Shown piece by piece: positions 57,414-64,000 of a DNA stretch of 64,000 bases. The translations under genes were made by a program, and so were the position numbers. Location: contig NZ_FOIB01000001.1 of NCBI RefSeq assembly GCF_900111765.1, positions 558,001-622,000 of the forward strand. Reading direction: 5' to 3'. The stretch is from Myxococcus fulvus (GTDB taxonomy: Bacteria; Myxococcota; Myxococcia; Myxococcales; Myxococcaceae). Under the pieces are notes generated by a model. That model ran no database searches and had not been told where the DNA came from. It saw nothing but the letters and a program-made list of their open reading frames with translations. Position 1 is the stretch's first letter. The number at the start of each line of letters is the position of its first letter.

Positions 57414-57971
57414 ATGCACACCTCGTGGGAGCCCTCGACGCGCACCGTGCCGGGGCCGGTCAAGCGCACCGCCCTCAACCCCACGCTGCGCACCGAGTCC
57501 GTCATCGCGCTGGGCGCGTTCAGCGCGCTCACGCTCGGCGCCGCCGCGCTGGGAGCCCGCCACAGCACCGCCGACACGCGCTGGTATCGCCACCTGCGCA
57601 AGCCGCCCTTCCAACCGCCGCCCTCCGCCTTCGGGCCGGTGTGGACCGCGCTCTATGCGCTCATCGCCGTCTCCGGCTGGCGCGTGTGGACGGCGCCGGC
57701 GGGGCCCTCGCGCTCCCGGGCGCTCGGCTGGTGGGGCGTGCAGCTGGGCCTCAACGCCGCGTGGTCCTGGCTCTTCTTCGGCAGGCACCAGCCCAGGAAG
57801 GCCCTGGCCGACAACCTGGCGCTCCTGGGCAGCATCGGGGCCTACATCGCCGCGACGCGGGAGGTGGACCGGCCCGCCGCGTGGCTGGTCGCGCCCTACC
57901 TGGCCTGGGTGGGCTTCGCCAACGTCCTCAATGGCGAAATCGTCCGGCGCAATCCCTCTTCCGGACACTGA
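57414..57971 (+). CDS. tspO: TspO/MBR family membrane protein
   Basis: The 185-residue protein has five membrane helices and the TspO signatures: WYRHLRKPPFQPPPSAFGPVWTALYALIAVSGWRVW early, WWGVQLGLNAAWSWLFFGRHQP in the middle and YLAWVGFANVLNGEIVRRN at the end. TspO proteins bind porphyrins and affect tetrapyrrole or stress responses. It has an extra N-terminal stretch of about 25 residues. Confidence 0.95.
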   Translation: MHTSWEPSTRTVPGPVKRTALNPTLRTESVIALGAFSALTLGAAALGARHSTADTRWYRHLRKPPFQPPPSAFGPVWTALYALIAVSGWRVWTAPAGPSRSRALGWWGVQLGLNAAWSWLFFGRHQPRKALADNLALLGSIGAYIAATREVDRPAAWLVAPYLAWVGFANVLNGEIVRRNPSSGH

Positions 57972-57994: not shown

Positions 57995-58025
57995 GGAAAA
58001 TTCGCCGGGAAATCCGGCCGGGAAG
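57995..58025 (+). promoter_or_regulatory. Three GGAA(A/G) motifs at 13-bp spacing upstream of ECF sigma gene
   Basis: GGAAA starts at 57995 and 58008 and GGAAG at 58021, each 13 bp apart, in the short leader before the ECF gene. They recall the GGAA part of an ECF -35 element, but no CGTC element lies 16-17 bp downstream of any, so this is only a candidate regulatory site. Confidence 0.3.
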
Positions 58026-58061
58026 ATGGGGGCGGGGCGTCGTTGAGAAGGGCGACCCGCC

Positions 58062-58718
58062 ATGGATGCTTTCGCCCTGCAACCACCTGTCGCACGCGCC
58101 CGTCGCCCCCGGTCCCGGGGCTTGACGGCCCATGACGCGCCGGTCCAGCCTGCACCCCGCGTGGATAGCGGGCCCCCCTCAACGCCGACCCTGGACAATC
58201 GCTGGTTCTCCGCCTTCGTCCGGACGCACGAGGCGGCGTTGCGCGCCACGGCGCTCCGGCTGTGCGGAAACGCGGCGGAGGCCAACGACCTGCTGCAGGA
58301 CACCTACGAGCGCGGGTTTCGCAACCTGTCTCGCTACCGCCCCGGCACCGACGGGCGCGCGTGGCTGCTCACCATCCTCCACCACATCTTCATCGACAAG
58401 TGCCGCTCCAAGACGCGCGAGCGTCGGGCGGACGTGTCGGCGGAGGAGCTGGAGGAGCGCATCGCCGCGCCGGAGCCGGAGGCCGCCCCCGCGTGGGCCT
58501 CCATCAGCACGGAGCAGCTGCGCGAGGCCCTGACGCGGATTCCGGAGGAGTTCGCGACGGTGTACCGGCTCCACGCCCTGGAGGGGATGCCCTATCAGGA
58601 CATCGCCGAGCGTCTGGGGATTCCCAAGGCGACGGTGGGCACGCGCCTCATCCGCGCGCGCCGCAAGCTGAAGGAGCTGTTGATGCCCGGCGCCACCGGC
58701 AAGGCGGAGGCGTCATGA
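58062..58718 (+). CDS. ECF sigma factor
   Basis: The 218-residue protein has sigma region 2 (WFSAFVRTHEAALRATALRLCGNAAEANDLLQDTYERGFRNLSRYRPGTDGRAWLLTILHHIFIDKCRSKTRERR, residues about 48-123) and region 4 (LREALTRIPEEFATVYRLHALEGMPYQDIAERLGIPKATVGTRLIRARRKLKELL, about 155-208), with no region 3, so it is an ECF factor. An extra N-terminal extension of about 45 residues is disordered. Its TGA overlaps the anti-sigma ATG (ATGA at 58715-58718). Confidence 0.95.
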   Translation: MDAFALQPPVARARRPRSRGLTAHDAPVQPAPRVDSGPPSTPTLDNRWFSAFVRTHEAALRATALRLCGNAAEANDLLQDTYERGFRNLSRYRPGTDGRAWLLTILHHIFIDKCRSKTRERRADVSAEELEERIAAPEPEAAPAWASISTEQLREALTRIPEEFATVYRLHALEGMPYQDIAERLGIPKATVGTRLIRARRKLKELLMPGATGKAEAS

Positions 58719-61699
58719 GCGCCCCGGAGCCCATGGACCCGCACGACCTGGTGCACGCCTTCGCGGATGGCGAGCTGTCCCAGGAGGAGGCGGAGCAGTT
58801 CCGCGAGCACCTGGCCACGTGCGAGGCGTGCCAGGAGGAGCTCGACGACATCCTCCAGCTCCAGGCGCTGGGCAACCGGCTCGGGGTCGAGGAGGCTCGC
58901 GAGGCCCCGCGCGACGTCGCCGCACCCGTGCAGCAGCCCGTGGCGTCCGCGCCCCCGCGCGCGTTTCGTCCCGCGTGGAGCCGCCGCAAGTGGGTGGCCG
59001 CCGCCGCGCTGTCCGGCTCGCTGGCCGCCATCCTGGTGCTGGTGGCGGTGCGCTCGGGGCCGTCGAACGTCCGCGACGATTCGACGCTGCTGGCCCTGGC
59101 GCCCACGCGCTCCATGGAGGCGCGGCTGAGCTGGTCCGGTGCCAGCGCGCACCGTCCCTACGGCGTGCTGCGCTCCGGCGACGAGCGCCCGCGTGAGCTG
59201 GTGCCGCTGCAGGTGCTGGCGAAGCTGGAGGCGCAGGGGGACTTGCAGGGCCTCGCGGTGGGGCACCTCTTGCGAGGTGAGCGCGAGCAGGCGGCCGACT
59301 ACCTCCAGCGCGCGCCCGCGTCGCCCGACGTGGACAGCGACAAGGCGGTGGTGGCGATGACGAAGGGCGAGCTCGAGTCCGCGCTCGTCCTGCTGGACGG
59401 TGTGCTGGAGAAGCACCCGCGTCACCCGCAGGCGTTGTGGAACCGCGCGCTCGTGCTGCGCGAGCTGGGCCTGGACGCGCTCGCGGCCGAGGCGTTCGAC
59501 ACCGTCGTCTCGCTGGGCGAGCCCGGCTGGGCGGAGGAGGCGCGGGAGCGCGCCCTCGTGCTGCGCCGTCAGCTGGAGGGGCGTCGCGGGGCGTGGGACT
59601 CCGCGCAGCAGGCCGGCCGCGCGCTCGCGCTGCAAGGCACCGCGTTCCCGGAGGACGTGGCGCGGGCGGTGCCGGGCACGGCGCGCAACTGGCTCAACAT
59701 CGCGCTGTGGACCGCGCCCTCCGCCGAGCGGGTGCGTGAGCTGCTGCCGCTGGCGAGGGTGCTGGACGCGCGCTACGGCGGCGACACGGTGGTGGCCTCC
59801 GTGGAGCGCGTGGCGGGGCTGGACTTCGCGCGGCGCGCGCCGTTCGCGGCCCGCTTCCGCGAGGTGCTGGAGGGCACCTTCGACAGCGCCTCGCTCGAGC
59901 CGCTGGTGAAGGAGCTGTCCGGCTCGCGGGACCAGGACATCCTGCTGGGCGTGCTGCCGCTGGCGGGCGGGCTGCCGGCGCACATCGACGTGTACGAGCA
60001 GGTGGCGCGCGCGCTCGGTGACTCGTGGCTGACGCTCAACGCGGAGCGCGAGCGCGCGCTGGCCGAGTACGGCAAGGGTGACCTGGCCGGCGCGGAGGCT
60101 CGGCTCCTGCGCGCGGTGGCGGCGTGCGAGGTCGCGAAGGCGGACTACCGCTGCGGCCAGCTGGAGCACCTGCTGGCGCACATCTACAAGGACGAGCACC
60201 GGCTGGTGGAGGCGCGCGAGCACGCGCTGGCGGGCCTGGGCTGGGCGCGGCAGACGCAGGAGTGGACGCTGCAAGCGGACCTGCTGCTGGTGCTGGGCGA
60301 CATGGCGCGCTTCCGCAACGCCTTCGCCCTGACGCGCGCGTACCTGGGCGAGCAGGCCCTGCGCGACAGGGGCTGCGCGGCCGACCGGCACGTGCACGAG
60401 AGCCTGGCGTCGCTGCACGTCTTCGCGCTGCGTCCCCAGGCCGCGCGCGAGGAGCTGGAGAAGGCCCCGGTGTGCGACGTGCCCTTCTTCCTCAACGGCG
60501 CGTTCGTGCTGGCGGACCTGGCGCGGTTGGACCCGAAGCCGGGCGACGTGGAGAAGGTGCGCGAGGGCCTGGCGAAGCTGGACGCCGCGGGCTGGCTGCG
60601 CCCCGGTGAGAAGGTCATGGCCACGCACATCCAGGGCCGCGCCGTCATCGGCTCGGACCGCGCGGAGGGCCAGCGGCTGCTCGGCCAGGCCATCGTCTCC
60701 GGTGAGCTGTTGGGCGCGGCGGACCCCGTCGCCGCCAAGGCGCGCGCGTACAGCTACTCCTCGCTCATCCTGGACGCGGGCTCCACCGGAGACTGGGCGC
60801 GGGCGCTGTCGCTCTTCGCTCAGGAGGCGCGTGTGCCGGCGCCCGAGCGCTGCTCCCTGGGCGTGGAGGTGCACGACGAGCGCACGTTGACGGCCGCGCG
60901 CGGCCCCACAGGTGAGCTGCTGGGTCACCAGGACGCGAGCCGCCGCTCGCCCGACTTCGACGTGGCCTCTCTGGTGCCCGCCTCCGTCATCGCCGCGCTC
61001 AAGCCCTGCGAGCACGTGAGCGTGTTCGCGCGCTACCCCGTGCACGGACAGGCGGGCCTGCTGCCGCCGGACATCGCGTGGAGCTACCACACGGGCACCC
61101 AGGCCCAGGCGCCGAAGGTCTCCGCGCCGCGCCCGCTGGTGGTCTACGACGTGGACGCGCCCGCGTCGCTGAACCTGCCCCGGCTGCGCAGCTGGGAGCT
61201 GTCCGGCGGGCCGTCTCCGCGCCGCGTGGAGCTGACGGGCGCGGCCGCCACGCCGTCGCGCCTGTTGGCGGAGCTGGCGCAGGCCACCGAGGTGGAGATC
61301 CACGCGCACGGCCTGGTGAACCTGGGCGTGTCGGACGCGTCGCTGCTGGTGATGGCGCCGGAGGCGGGTGGCCGCTACGCGCTCACCGCGGGCCAGGTGC
61401 GTCAGCAGAAGCTGCGGGGCGCGCCGGTGGTGCTGCTCGGCGCGTGTCAGGCGGCCCGGACGGCGCCGTACCTCCACGCGCCGTGGAGCCTCCCCGTCGC
61501 CTTCGCCGAGGCGGGCGCGCGCGCCGTCATCGCCTCACCCATCGACATCCCGGACGCCGAGGCCGGGCCCTTCTTCGCGCGGGTCATGGAGCGCATCCGC
61601 GCCGGTTCCACCGCCAGTCTCGCGCTCCGAGACGAAAGGCTGCGCGTGTTGTCCACGCAGCCCGACAGCTGGGTGAAGACGGTCGTCGTCTTCGAGTAG
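58715..61699 (+). CDS. Anti-sigma factor fused to TPR-like region and CHAT caspase-like protease
   Basis: The 994-residue protein begins with a zinc-finger anti-sigma domain (His32, Cys36 and Cys39 in HLATCEAC), as in ZAS proteins. One membrane helix (about 93-114) follows. The long region about 150-760 is TPR-like alpha solenoid (for example NRALVLRELGLDALAAEAFDTVVSL). The C-terminal about 190 residues are a CHAT domain: EVEIHAHG with His865, and VVLLGACQAAR with Cys911, as in TPR-CHAT proteases. The topology puts the solenoid and CHAT domain in the periplasm and the zinc finger in the cytoplasm with the sigma factor. It is translationally coupled to the ECF gene. Self-cleavage or cleavage of a partner would be a way to release sigma; that is inference. 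Confidence 0.88.
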   Translation: MSAPEPMDPHDLVHAFADGELSQEEAEQFREHLATCEACQEELDDILQLQALGNRLGVEEAREAPRDVAAPVQQPVASAPPRAFRPAWSRRKWVAAAALSGSLAAILVLVAVRSGPSNVRDDSTLLALAPTRSMEARLSWSGASAHRPYGVLRSGDERPRELVPLQVLAKLEAQGDLQGLAVGHLLRGEREQAADYLQRAPASPDVDSDKAVVAMTKGELESALVLLDGVLEKHPRHPQALWNRALVLRELGLDALAAEAFDTVVSLGEPGWAEEARERALVLRRQLEGRRGAWDSAQQAGRALALQGTAFPEDVARAVPGTARNWLNIALWTAPSAERVRELLPLARVLDARYGGDTVVASVERVAGLDFARRAPFAARFREVLEGTFDSASLEPLVKELSGSRDQDILLGVLPLAGGLPAHIDVYEQVARALGDSWLTLNAERERALAEYGKGDLAGAEARLLRAVAACEVAKADYRCGQLEHLLAHIYKDEHRLVEAREHALAGLGWARQTQEWTLQADLLLVLGDMARFRNAFALTRAYLGEQALRDRGCAADRHVHESLASLHVFALRPQAAREELEKAPVCDVPFFLNGAFVLADLARLDPKPGDVEKVREGLAKLDAAGWLRPGEKVMATHIQGRAVIGSDRAEGQRLLGQAIVSGELLGAADPVAAKARAYSYSSLILDAGSTGDWARALSLFAQEARVPAPERCSLGVEVHDERTLTAARGPTGELLGHQDASRRSPDFDVASLVPASVIAALKPCEHVSVFARYPVHGQAGLLPPDIAWSYHTGTQAQAPKVSAPRPLVVYDVDAPASLNLPRLRSWELSGGPSPRRVELTGAAATPSRLLAELAQATEVEIHAHGLVNLGVSDASLLVMAPEAGGRYALTAGQVRQQKLRGAPVVLLGACQAARTAPYLHAPWSLPVAFAEAGARAVIASPIDIPDAEAGPFFARVMERIRAGSTASLALRDERLRVLSTQPDSWVKTVVVFE

Positions 61700-61785
61700 C
61701 CCCGTCACCGCCGTCAGTCCTCCACCTCGGCTCGAACGAGCCGAGCACGCTCCACGTGTCTCTTCACACCAAGGAAACCACGCCC

Positions 61786-62394
61786 ATGAAGACGCTTCGC
61801 TCCGCGCTGCTGTGCCTCGTCACGCTGTCCACCTTCGCCGCGTGCGGCGTCGACTCCATCGACCAGGCCTCGCCCGAGACGCTGGAGTCGCTGGGCTCCG
61901 TTTCGCAGCAGGCCGTGCTGCCGCCTCCGCCGATTCCCAACTACTGCCCGGGCACCACCATCCCCGGCACGCCGTGGGGCATCCCCACCGCGCCCACGGC
62001 GCTGTCCAGCATCCCCAACGGCACGCCGATGTATCCAAACAGCGCCTCGCTGCTCAGCGCGTACACCGTCATCGTCACGGACCCGAACGACGCCAACTCC
62101 TTCTACGCCTTCGGCTTCGACGTGCGCGCCCAGCGGCTCATCTTCTGGGTGTCCGGCGCGAAGACGGAGTTGCGCCGCCTCAACAGCCAGCTCGCCACCG
62201 ACATCACCGTGCTGGAGACGTCCAGCGGCATCGACATGGGCTTCTCCTGGGGCTCCAGCGGCCAGGTCGGCGGTCCACTCATCCCCCGGCCGGGTGTGGC
62301 CGAGGGCGCGTGGAAGGTCGCGTTCAACAACTGGGCGCAGCTCGACAACTACCTCATCAGCCCGCCGGCGCCCGGCACCGCCCCCGTTCAGTGA
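61786..62394 (+). CDS. Lipoprotein of unknown function following the CHAT gene
   Basis: ATG 61786 follows AAGGAA; 202 residues with a lipoprotein signal (MKTLRSALLCLVTLSTFAAC). The N-terminal part of the mature protein is Pro-rich (PPPPIPNYCPGTTIPGTPWG); the rest is Thr/Ser/Asn-rich beta-type sequence. I recognise no domain. It lies 86 bp after the CHAT gene on the same strand, so it could be a substrate or sensor partner for the CHAT domain, or a separate sigma target. Confidence 0.75.
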   Translation: MKTLRSALLCLVTLSTFAACGVDSIDQASPETLESLGSVSQQAVLPPPPIPNYCPGTTIPGTPWGIPTAPTALSSIPNGTPMYPNSASLLSAYTVIVTDPNDANSFYAFGFDVRAQRLIFWVSGAKTELRRLNSQLATDITVLETSSGIDMGFSWGSSGQVGGPLIPRPGVAEGAWKVAFNNWAQLDNYLISPPAPGTAPVQ

Positions 62395-62711: not shown

Positions 62712-64000
62712 TCAGTGGACGTGGCGCTCCGGCTGGGGAGCGGGCGGGTGAGAGGGGGCTCCCGTCAACAGCGGTAGGGCGACATGGAAGGTGGAGCCTT
62801 CTCCCACCTGGCTCTCCACCCAGATGCGGCCGCCGTGGCGCTCGACGATGTCGCGGCTGATGTACAGGCCCAGGCCCAGCCCGCCATACGAGCGCGAGGA
62901 CACGTTGCGCGCGCGGAAGTAGCGCTCGAAGAGCAGCTTCTGCTGGTCCTCGGGGATGCCGATGCCCGGGTCCTTCACCGACAAGAGCGCCAGCTCTCCG
63001 CGCGTCTCCAGCTTGATGTGGATGACACCACCGTCGGGGCTGTACTTGAAGGCGTTCTCCACCAGGTTGGTGACCACCTGCTCCAGCCGGTACGGGTCCG
63101 CGAACACCTGCACGTCGCGCTCGGGCCGCTCGTAGCGCAGCTCGTGTCCGCCGCGCTGCGCCTCCATCGCCTGCAGCACGTGCTCCACCAGGCTGTCCAG
63201 GCGCGTGGCCTGGGGATGCAGCGCCAGCCGGCCCGCCTCGATGCGGGACGCGTCCAGCAGGTCGTTGATGAGCCCCGTCATGCGCAACAGGTGCTGGCGC
63301 GCGTGGCGCAGGGTGGTGGGGTCCACGCTCTCCCCGCGCTCCAGCCTGCGCTCCAGCGTGGCCAGCCGGAGGCTCAGCGGTGTCAGCGGCGTCTTCAGCT
63401 CGTGCGAGGCGATGGACAGGAAGTCGTCGCGCACGCGGATGGCCTCACGCGCCTCGCGATAGAGCCGCTCTCGCTCCTCCTCGGCGAGCCTGCGCTGGGT
63501 GATGTCCTCCACGAGCACGCCCACGCCCAACAGGTGTCCGTCCGGCGCGCGCACCGGGTAGCAGCTCCCCGTGAGCAGTCGGCGGGGGCCGGGATGGCCC
63601 ACGGCCTGGGTGTCCACCTCCTGGCCCACCACGGGCTCGCCGGTGTCCAATACCTGTTGCAGCATGGCCGTCGCGGCGCGGCCGCCCTCACCCAGCACCT
63701 CGAGGGGCGTGCGCCCCAGGTGGGCCTCCGGGGGCAGGCCGTTGATGCGCGCCAGCCGCTCGTTGACGCGCACGTAGCGCAGGTGCGTGTCGAGGAAGCC
63801 CAGGGCCACGGGCGCGGTCTCGAACAGGGTGATGAGCAGGGCCAGGTTCTCGTCGCGCTGGCGCTCGGCGCGGCGGCGCTCGGAAGCGTCCTCGACCAGC
63901 CCCACGCCGCCCTCCACCTGGCCCGCGTCGTTGTAGCAGGGCGCGAAGCGGATATGGACGGGCGTCACCTTGTGGCTGGTCACCGCGGAGTAGTCCCCCA
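62712..64000 (-). CDS. PAS-domain sensor histidine kinase (5' end outside window)
   Basis: The frame is open to the right edge, so the gene is truncated at its 5' end; 429 residues are visible. Order: the end of a PAS domain (HIRFAPCYNDAGQVEGGVGLVEDASERRRAE), a second PAS (FETAPVALGFLDTHLRYVRVNERLARINGLP, ending VLVEDITQRRLAEEE), then HisKA with SIASHELKTPLTPLSLRL and ATPase motifs NLVENAFKYSPDGG, DPGIGIPEDQQ, FERYF and GGLGLGLYI. It is a cytoplasmic sensor kinase in the visible part. No response regulator gene is visible next to it. Confidence 0.92.
   Translation of the reverse strand, partial: GDYSAVTSHKVTPVHIRFAPCYNDAGQVEGGVGLVEDASERRRAERQRDENLALLITLFETAPVALGFLDTHLRYVRVNERLARINGLPPEAHLGRTPLEVLGEGGRAATAMLQQVLDTGEPVVGQEVDTQAVGHPGPRRLLTGSCYPVRAPDGHLLGVGVLVEDITQRRLAEEERERLYREAREAIRVRDDFLSIASHELKTPLTPLSLRLATLERRLERGESVDPTTLRHARQHLLRMTGLINDLLDASRIEAGRLALHPQATRLDSLVEHVLQAMEAQRGGHELRYERPERDVQVFADPYRLEQVVTNLVENAFKYSPDGGVIHIKLETRGELALLSVKDPGIGIPEDQQKLLFERYFRARNVSSRSYGGLGLGLYISRDIVERHGGRIWVESQVGEGSTFHVALPLLTGAPSHPPAPQPERHVH

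Follow-up and report, generated by a model that had tools for sequence, protein, structure and literature searches.

A DdvS/DdvA-type sigma factor and TPR-CHAT anti-sigma factor pair in Myxococcus fulvus, its predicted regulon, and natural splits among its relatives

The stretch of Myxococcus fulvus DNA analyzed here, a window of 64,000 nucleotides, encodes an ECF sigma factor and, overlapping it, an anti-sigma factor that joins a zinc-finger anti-sigma (ZAS) domain, one membrane helix (TM), a TPR-like solenoid, and a CHAT domain. We read this pair, with a probability of roughly 0.6, as a membrane sigma switch of the DdvS/DdvA type, in which the CHAT domain would cut the anti-sigma factor in trans and the sigma factor would feed both a regulon and a second TPR-CHAT protein. 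The ZAS-TM-TPR-CHAT architecture is not new, and sequence comparison and predicted structure place the window pair among switches of the DdvS/DdvA kind. What is new here is the conservation of a His-Cys dyad, a predicted promoter and regulon, a second TPR-CHAT gene apparently controlled by the same sigma factor, and a sister clade whose anti-sigma factors lack the CHAT domain.

Results

The locus and the anti-sigma protein

The sigma factor gene (58062 to 58718, plus strand) encodes 218 residues with Pfam matches to Sigma70_r2 (E 7e-14) and Sigma70_r4_2 (E 2e-14), and its stop overlaps the start of the 994-residue anti-sigma gene (58715 to 61699, plus strand) in a four-base ATGA; a reading of the letters alone had already described the overlap. 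After a gap of 86 bases follows a gene for a small predicted lipoprotein of 202 residues (61786 to 62394, plus strand). A TspO/MBR family gene lies immediately 5' of the sigma gene (57414 to 57971), its end aligning with sequence that lies before the orthologous sigma genes of Myxococcus and Pyxidicoccus, and a PAS-domain sensor histidine kinase is encoded past the lipoprotein gene (62712 to 63983, minus strand). Sigma factor matches also adjoin the ZAS-CHAT genes of relatives, and the Myxococcus eversor locus is 83% identical to that of the window.

The domain calls of the sequence-only reading held. Its zinc-finger anti-sigma domain, with HxxxCxxC at 32 to 39, coincides with a zf-HC2 match (PF13490, E 1.3e-10) over residues 10 to 40 (58742 to 58834, plus strand), and our own hydropathy scan found one hydrophobic stretch, a single predicted membrane helix at about residues 94 to 112 (58994 to 59050, plus strand), that falls in a low-confidence part of the AlphaFold2 model (residues 60 to 124, pLDDT below 50). 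The long helical-repeat region appears in that model, by DSSP, as a TPR-like solenoid at about residues 165 to 704 (59207 to 60826, plus strand); the Pfam TPR matches fall below the Pfam cut-offs. An alpha/beta domain follows at about 714 to 994, and within it the CHAT match (PF12770, E 1.8e-18) covers residues 838 to 984 (61226 to 61666, plus strand). The CHAT fold, for which that reading had proposed a domain search and structure prediction, is upheld by the Pfam match, by the model, and by a match to the solved structure 8rot. Mean pLDDT is 87.6 for the whole model, which was built from a 51-sequence alignment that includes 50 of the best 80 relatives (78 loci) taken from 137. The Arg-rich flank on the N-terminal side of the membrane helix suggests an N-in, C-out topology, and it is plausible that the TPR-CHAT part is periplasmic.

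Two residues of the CHAT domain, His865 (61307 to 61309, plus strand) and Cys911 (61445 to 61447, plus strand), are kept in 110 of 110 CHAT members (65 with a ZAS domain and 45 in which none was seen), a count that is partly built in for His865, since one search pattern contained H[AT]HG, and is not so for Cys911. A smaller first set gave 26 of 26. Taken together, the Pfam match, the fold match, and this conservation point to a caspase-type fold with a His-Cys pair.

Comparison with known systems

The closest relatives of known structure belong to DdvA. The best PDB sequence match is a 991-residue "CHAT domain-containing protein" (8rot/8rw5; residues 8 to 994, E 5e-128), and the next is the DdvA zinc finger (8rlz, E 8.6e-8). 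Among the matches listed, the closest solved structure to our model is 8rot_A (Z 44.2, 863 aligned residues, 36% identity), titled "Cryo-EM structure of the transmembrane anti-sigma factor DdvA," the match spanning residues 121 to 994. The other fold matches listed include Craspase TPR-CHAT chains (Z up to 23) and separases (Z 16 to 20). DdvS/DdvA of Myxococcus xanthus (8rot, 8rw5, 8rlz) thus shares with the window an ECF sigma factor and an anti-sigma factor of ZAS domain, one membrane helix, and TPR-CHAT, with an alignment over the full length and the same fold. A 2024 study of DdvA reportedly solved this phage-defense switch of the same design and is said to propose autoproteolysis in trans within a dimer, ahead of RseP, while terming the active site of DdvA incomplete; DdvA is said to be a dimer with its active sites facing.

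DdvA differs from the window protein in being a paralogue from another clade of the tree. We considered, and rejected, the possibility that the window protein is the DdvA orthologue: DdvA groups with four other sequences (L220, L232, L180, and L032; support 0.99) outside the window clade. DdvS controls an island of CBASS and type III-B CRISPR genes, according to PMC12288465, whereas the predicted targets of the window sigma factor are genes for lipoproteins, for secreted proteins, and for a second TPR-CHAT protein. Unlike DdvA, moreover, the CHAT domain of the window locus is split off in sister genomes. DdvS turns active once DdvA is inactivated, by a signal described as unknown in PMC4374960; further literature on the subject includes PMC8156234 and PMC11237760.

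Craspase (the TPR-CHAT protein Csx29, Csx30, and CASP-sigma) also couples a TPR-CHAT protease to an ECF sigma factor, and cutting of the inhibitor by Csx29 is proposed to free CASP-sigma (PMC10028731). It differs in being RNA guided and in having a separate protein as inhibitor, whereas the window protein carries ZAS domain, membrane helix, and TPR-CHAT in one chain. Regulated proteolysis of RseA and RsiW resembles the window system in its membrane ZAS anti-sigma factor, the RsiW ZAS domain being a weak sequence match (E 0.027). To our knowledge, RseA and RsiW anti-sigma factors have no protease domain inside them, a difference from the window protein. Separases and bacterial caspase-like proteases share the caspase-type fold with helical repeats, and some of the bacterial enzymes are linked to gasdermins; we know of no connection between any of them and a sigma factor.

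The family in the genome and in the class

The genome that holds the window contains eight strong matches to the family and two weak ones. Four complete ECF-ZAS-TPR-CHAT loci are present (the window, two in tandem on contig C6 [L039:4822-12608], and one on C2), together with three TPR-CHAT genes without a ZAS domain (on C4, at C1:1061034, and on C7) and one ZAS-TPR gene without CHAT (C1:1065812). Tandem pairs of loci also occur in relatives (L170, L179, L181, L193, L198, and L199). With five candidates per genome scored, matches at E <= 1e-10 were found in 67 of 147 genomes and 11 of 48 genera of the class. For ZAS-less tree sequences that start at contig ends (L202, L203, L204, L209, L210, L213, L216, L227, L230, and L231), the apparent absence of the ZAS domain may be an artifact. 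One ZAS-less TPR-CHAT protein (L212:5824) has an N terminus that looks less like a membrane helix than like a lipoprotein signal.

A predicted promoter and regulon

Upstream of the sigma gene lies a predicted autoregulated ECF promoter, GGGAAGA-N14-CGTT (58020 to 58044, plus strand; -35 element 58020 to 58026, -10 element 58041 to 58044). Both elements and their spacing of 14 bases are unchanged at every one of the 17 orthologous sigma genes, those of Archangium and Citreicoccus included, despite differing surrounding sequence. The motif was not found at the paralogous sigma genes of the same genome.

Exact sites track the presence of the locus. The window's own genome holds nine, versus one for a reversed-pattern control. 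Across 24 genomes with the locus there are 230 sites (mean 9.6; reversed control 56), and across nine sigma-less genomes, defined as having no sigma match at E <= 1e-30, there are 14 (mean 1.6; reversed control 23), a difference with a Mann-Whitney p of 1e-5, uncorrected for relatedness and with four genomes left out. Those four (G043, G045, G048, and G077; 3, 5, 7, and 14 sites against 3, 3, 3, and 1 for the control) were set aside because the sigma relative in G045, G048, and G077 has no P0001 homologue beside it and the sigma factor of G043 is only 46% identical. Some genomes have counts near or below the reversed control despite carrying the locus (G044, 5 versus 10; G075, 4 versus 3; G096, 5 versus 3). 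The sigma relatives in G077, G045, and G048 (L145, L146, and L147) are 58 to 63% identical, and no ZAS-CHAT gene was found adjoining them; in G077, with its 14 sites, most of the ten sites fetched precede secreted-looking genes, in what appears to be the same regulon.

A same-strand gene start lies within 250 nt of 61 of 67 fetched sites. Because 969 of 1500 random positions also meet this description, it is a weaker sign of a regulon than the share of sites whose gene looks secreted or lipidated, which, by a home-made rule rather than SignalP, is 49 of 67; the same share is 1 of 14 for the sites of sigma-less genomes and 119 of 1500 for random positions. The corresponding figures are 35 of 60 for held-out sites and 18 of 33 for two held-out genomes (G095 and G108) taken complete except for the sigma and TPR-CHAT sites. 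All sites were fetched, again with the exception of the sigma and TPR-CHAT sites, from G099, G105, G109, G104, G056, G095, and G108; all nine were fetched from G000, eight being counted (the sigma site was left out), and all but the TPR-CHAT site from G084, with the sigma site included. Those from G081 (6 of 8), G082 (4 of 8), G083 (4 of 19), G098, G077, G102, and G097 were picked by eye, some being skipped, and those from G114 came from among the sites listed.

Twenty hand-picked proteins of the predicted regulon included, by Pfam, peptidases of the matrixin/M57, Met-zincin (two, orthologues of each other), M64, neprosin, and subtilase families, with one sigma-54 activator and a weak pectate-lyase match besides; 12 of the 20 had no Pfam family at E <= 0.001. 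A sigma-54 activator-like gene stands 3' of the motif in two genomes (L096:202-1170, by Pfam, and L109, by similarity). The window sigma factor is thus predicted to run lipoprotein and secreted-protein genes, some of them peptidases.

A second TPR-CHAT gene under the same motif

One of the sites in the window's genome stands before the ZAS-less TPR-CHAT gene on C4, about 40 bases 5' of its homologous stretch. In 16 of the 24 genomes with the locus (G000, G099, G097, G105, G102, G098, G104, G109, G120, G055, G056, G108, G081, G082, G083, and G084), judged by coordinates or by fetched sequence, an exact site stands 5' of a TPR-CHAT gene whose match starts after the ZAS domain; for unfetched genes, ZAS absence was read from a match start at residue 78 or beyond. 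The site before the TPR-CHAT gene has one mismatch in G095 and G114, and no exact site was found at the one TPR-CHAT gene examined in G111; G096, G044, and G046 were left out of this check. Of 24 further TPR-CHAT genes that lack ZAS and have 250 nt or more of sequence before them, none has an exact site. The second TPR-CHAT protein seems to have no ZAS domain, so it should not hold a sigma factor, and it keeps the His-Cys pair; for these two reasons we suggest either a feed-forward action on the switch or a role in processing the envelope products of the regulon.

The neighboring lipoprotein

The sequence-only reading had named the lipoprotein next door as a possible partner, and this suggestion gains support from synteny, since 16 of 17 orthologous loci have a homologue behind the CHAT gene, and from the lipoprotein encoded behind the co-regulated ZAS-less TPR-CHAT gene: a core of about 60 residues appears to be common to the two lipoproteins. 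Profiles of these two groups of lipoproteins, searched against downstream lipoproteins only, found 4 of 7 and 6 of 13 members of each other (E 3.5e-7 to 1.4e-4), and hhalign between them gave a probability of 61%; one lipoprotein group, C, matches the others over 23 to 24 columns only. The AlphaFold2 model of the window lipoprotein (pLDDT 60.9) has a disordered N-terminal linker and a beta-beta-beta-alpha-beta-alpha core. Pfam had no match for this protein, and Foldseek, among the matches listed for the model, had nothing at E under 0.001.

These data bear on whether the substrate of the CHAT domain is the neighboring lipoprotein, or the co-regulated secreted proteins, instead of the anti-sigma factor, the fusion coupling processing to expression. 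We judge this improbable, even though the synteny, the shared core, and a predicted regulon of mostly secreted-looking genes all speak for it. Family-wide, only 29 of 64 ZAS-CHAT genes had a lipoprotein found behind them, as did 8 of 46 CHAT genes lacking ZAS and 1 of 25 genes lacking CHAT, and the one candidate cleavage signal failed. The window lipoprotein and its orthologues have an invariant Gln (Q41) in the variable linker, and, with several lipoproteins of the regulon resembling them, a Gln motif was considered as a cleavage signal for lipoproteins across the regulon; a first count gave 7 of 11 in the regulon versus 11 of 38 others (which included orthologues of the window lipoprotein), and a wider set 10 of 16 at sites already seen, but in held-out data the motif occurred in 4 of 11 regulon lipoproteins versus 5 of 22 controls, and we dropped it.

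Anti-sigma factors without a CHAT domain

In six genomes (G081 to G084, G074, and G075), the anti-sigma factor encoded after the orthologous sigma gene has the form ZAS-TM-TPR; it lacks a CHAT domain and stops near residue 550 (at 524 in G082). These six anti-sigma factors form one clade (support 0.92 to 0.93) nested in the window clade, the rest of which is fused except for L144 (G108), where homology ends near residue 290. Because the clade is nested among fused forms, CHAT was probably lost in it. All six genomes encode a separate TPR-CHAT protein. In four of them its gene lies under the same motif; in the other two, G074 and G075, the gene stands divergently beside the sigma gene, and even a search that tolerates two mismatches finds no site before it.

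A second split family comprises 16 CHAT-less anti-sigma sequences in one clade (0.99), all in loci with a ZAS-less TPR-CHAT gene, a neighborhood that is partly built in, 15 of the 16 loci having been fetched by their CHAT gene. One such arrangement occurs in the window's own genome on C1 (L041:4466-10728), where a ZAS-less TPR-CHAT gene and a convergent JmjC/cupin_8 gene precede a sigma gene and a CHAT-less ZAS-TPR anti-sigma gene.

Discussion

The natural splits are the crux of the argument on mechanism. Since six orthologous anti-sigma factors do without it, the CHAT domain appears to be dispensable in cis, and our strongest reason for thinking that it works on the switch, and can do so from another molecule, is that the same parts occur fused, split, and doubled. 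Hence CHAT probably acts in trans. This divides the sequence-only reading in two: its domain calls and CHAT fold stand, whereas the idea that the anti-sigma factor must be cut in cis is weakened by the six orthologues, whose separate TPR-CHAT genes lie under the motif or adjoin the locus.

CHAT-less anti-sigma factors, both the six orthologues and the 16 sequences of the second split family, would also fit a CHAT domain that has no part in sigma release. CHAT might then be a non-proteolytic sensing or dimerization domain, with site-1 and site-2 proteases cutting the anti-sigma factor upon a change of shape in TPR-CHAT. We consider this unlikely, for His865 and Cys911 should have been lost somewhere in a domain of purely structural function, whereas the pair is kept throughout the CHAT members with and without a ZAS domain, the count for His being partly built in.

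In the trans-cutting switch that we favor, the ZAS domain would hold the sigma factor at the membrane until the TPR solenoid, possibly with the neighboring lipoprotein, sensed an envelope signal and the CHAT domain became activated. CHAT would then cut the anti-sigma factor in trans, either within a dimer, on the partner chain, or through a free TPR-CHAT protein, and that cut would start regulated proteolysis and free the sigma factor. The sequence-only reading set this mechanism apart from the usual site-1/site-2 route; CHAT may simply replace or precede the site-1 step. The freed sigma factor would transcribe its own operon and genes for apparent lipoproteins and secreted proteins, peptidases among them; in 16 genomes it would also transcribe the second TPR-CHAT gene, whose product would feed forward on the switch or process envelope products of the regulon.

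More tentatively, the switch may be self-amplifying: a few active CHAT domains would cut anti-sigma factors in trans, the freed sigma factor would make more CHAT, and the cell would commit to secretion. In the sister genera, CHAT would then reside wholly on the free protein, and the anti-sigma factor would be substrate only. We found no description of this variant of the circuit, with a second TPR-CHAT gene under sigma control and CHAT split off in sister genera, in the literature examined on DdvA/DdvS, on CHAT with anti-sigma or ECF factors, on CHAT with Myxococcus, or on caspase-like proteins with anti-sigma and ECF sigma factors; the 2018 and 2024 DdvA papers (Bernal-Bernal) may contain part of it.

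With eight strong matches in a single genome, the DdvA-type family is larger than one defense switch. The natural splits within it offer a direct test of a seemingly open question about DdvA, namely whether the anti-sigma factor is cut by the CHAT domain and, if so, whether in trans. Should the feedback prove real, a caspase-like protease would be under positive control of the very sigma factor that it releases, an arrangement comparable with Craspase, but at the membrane.
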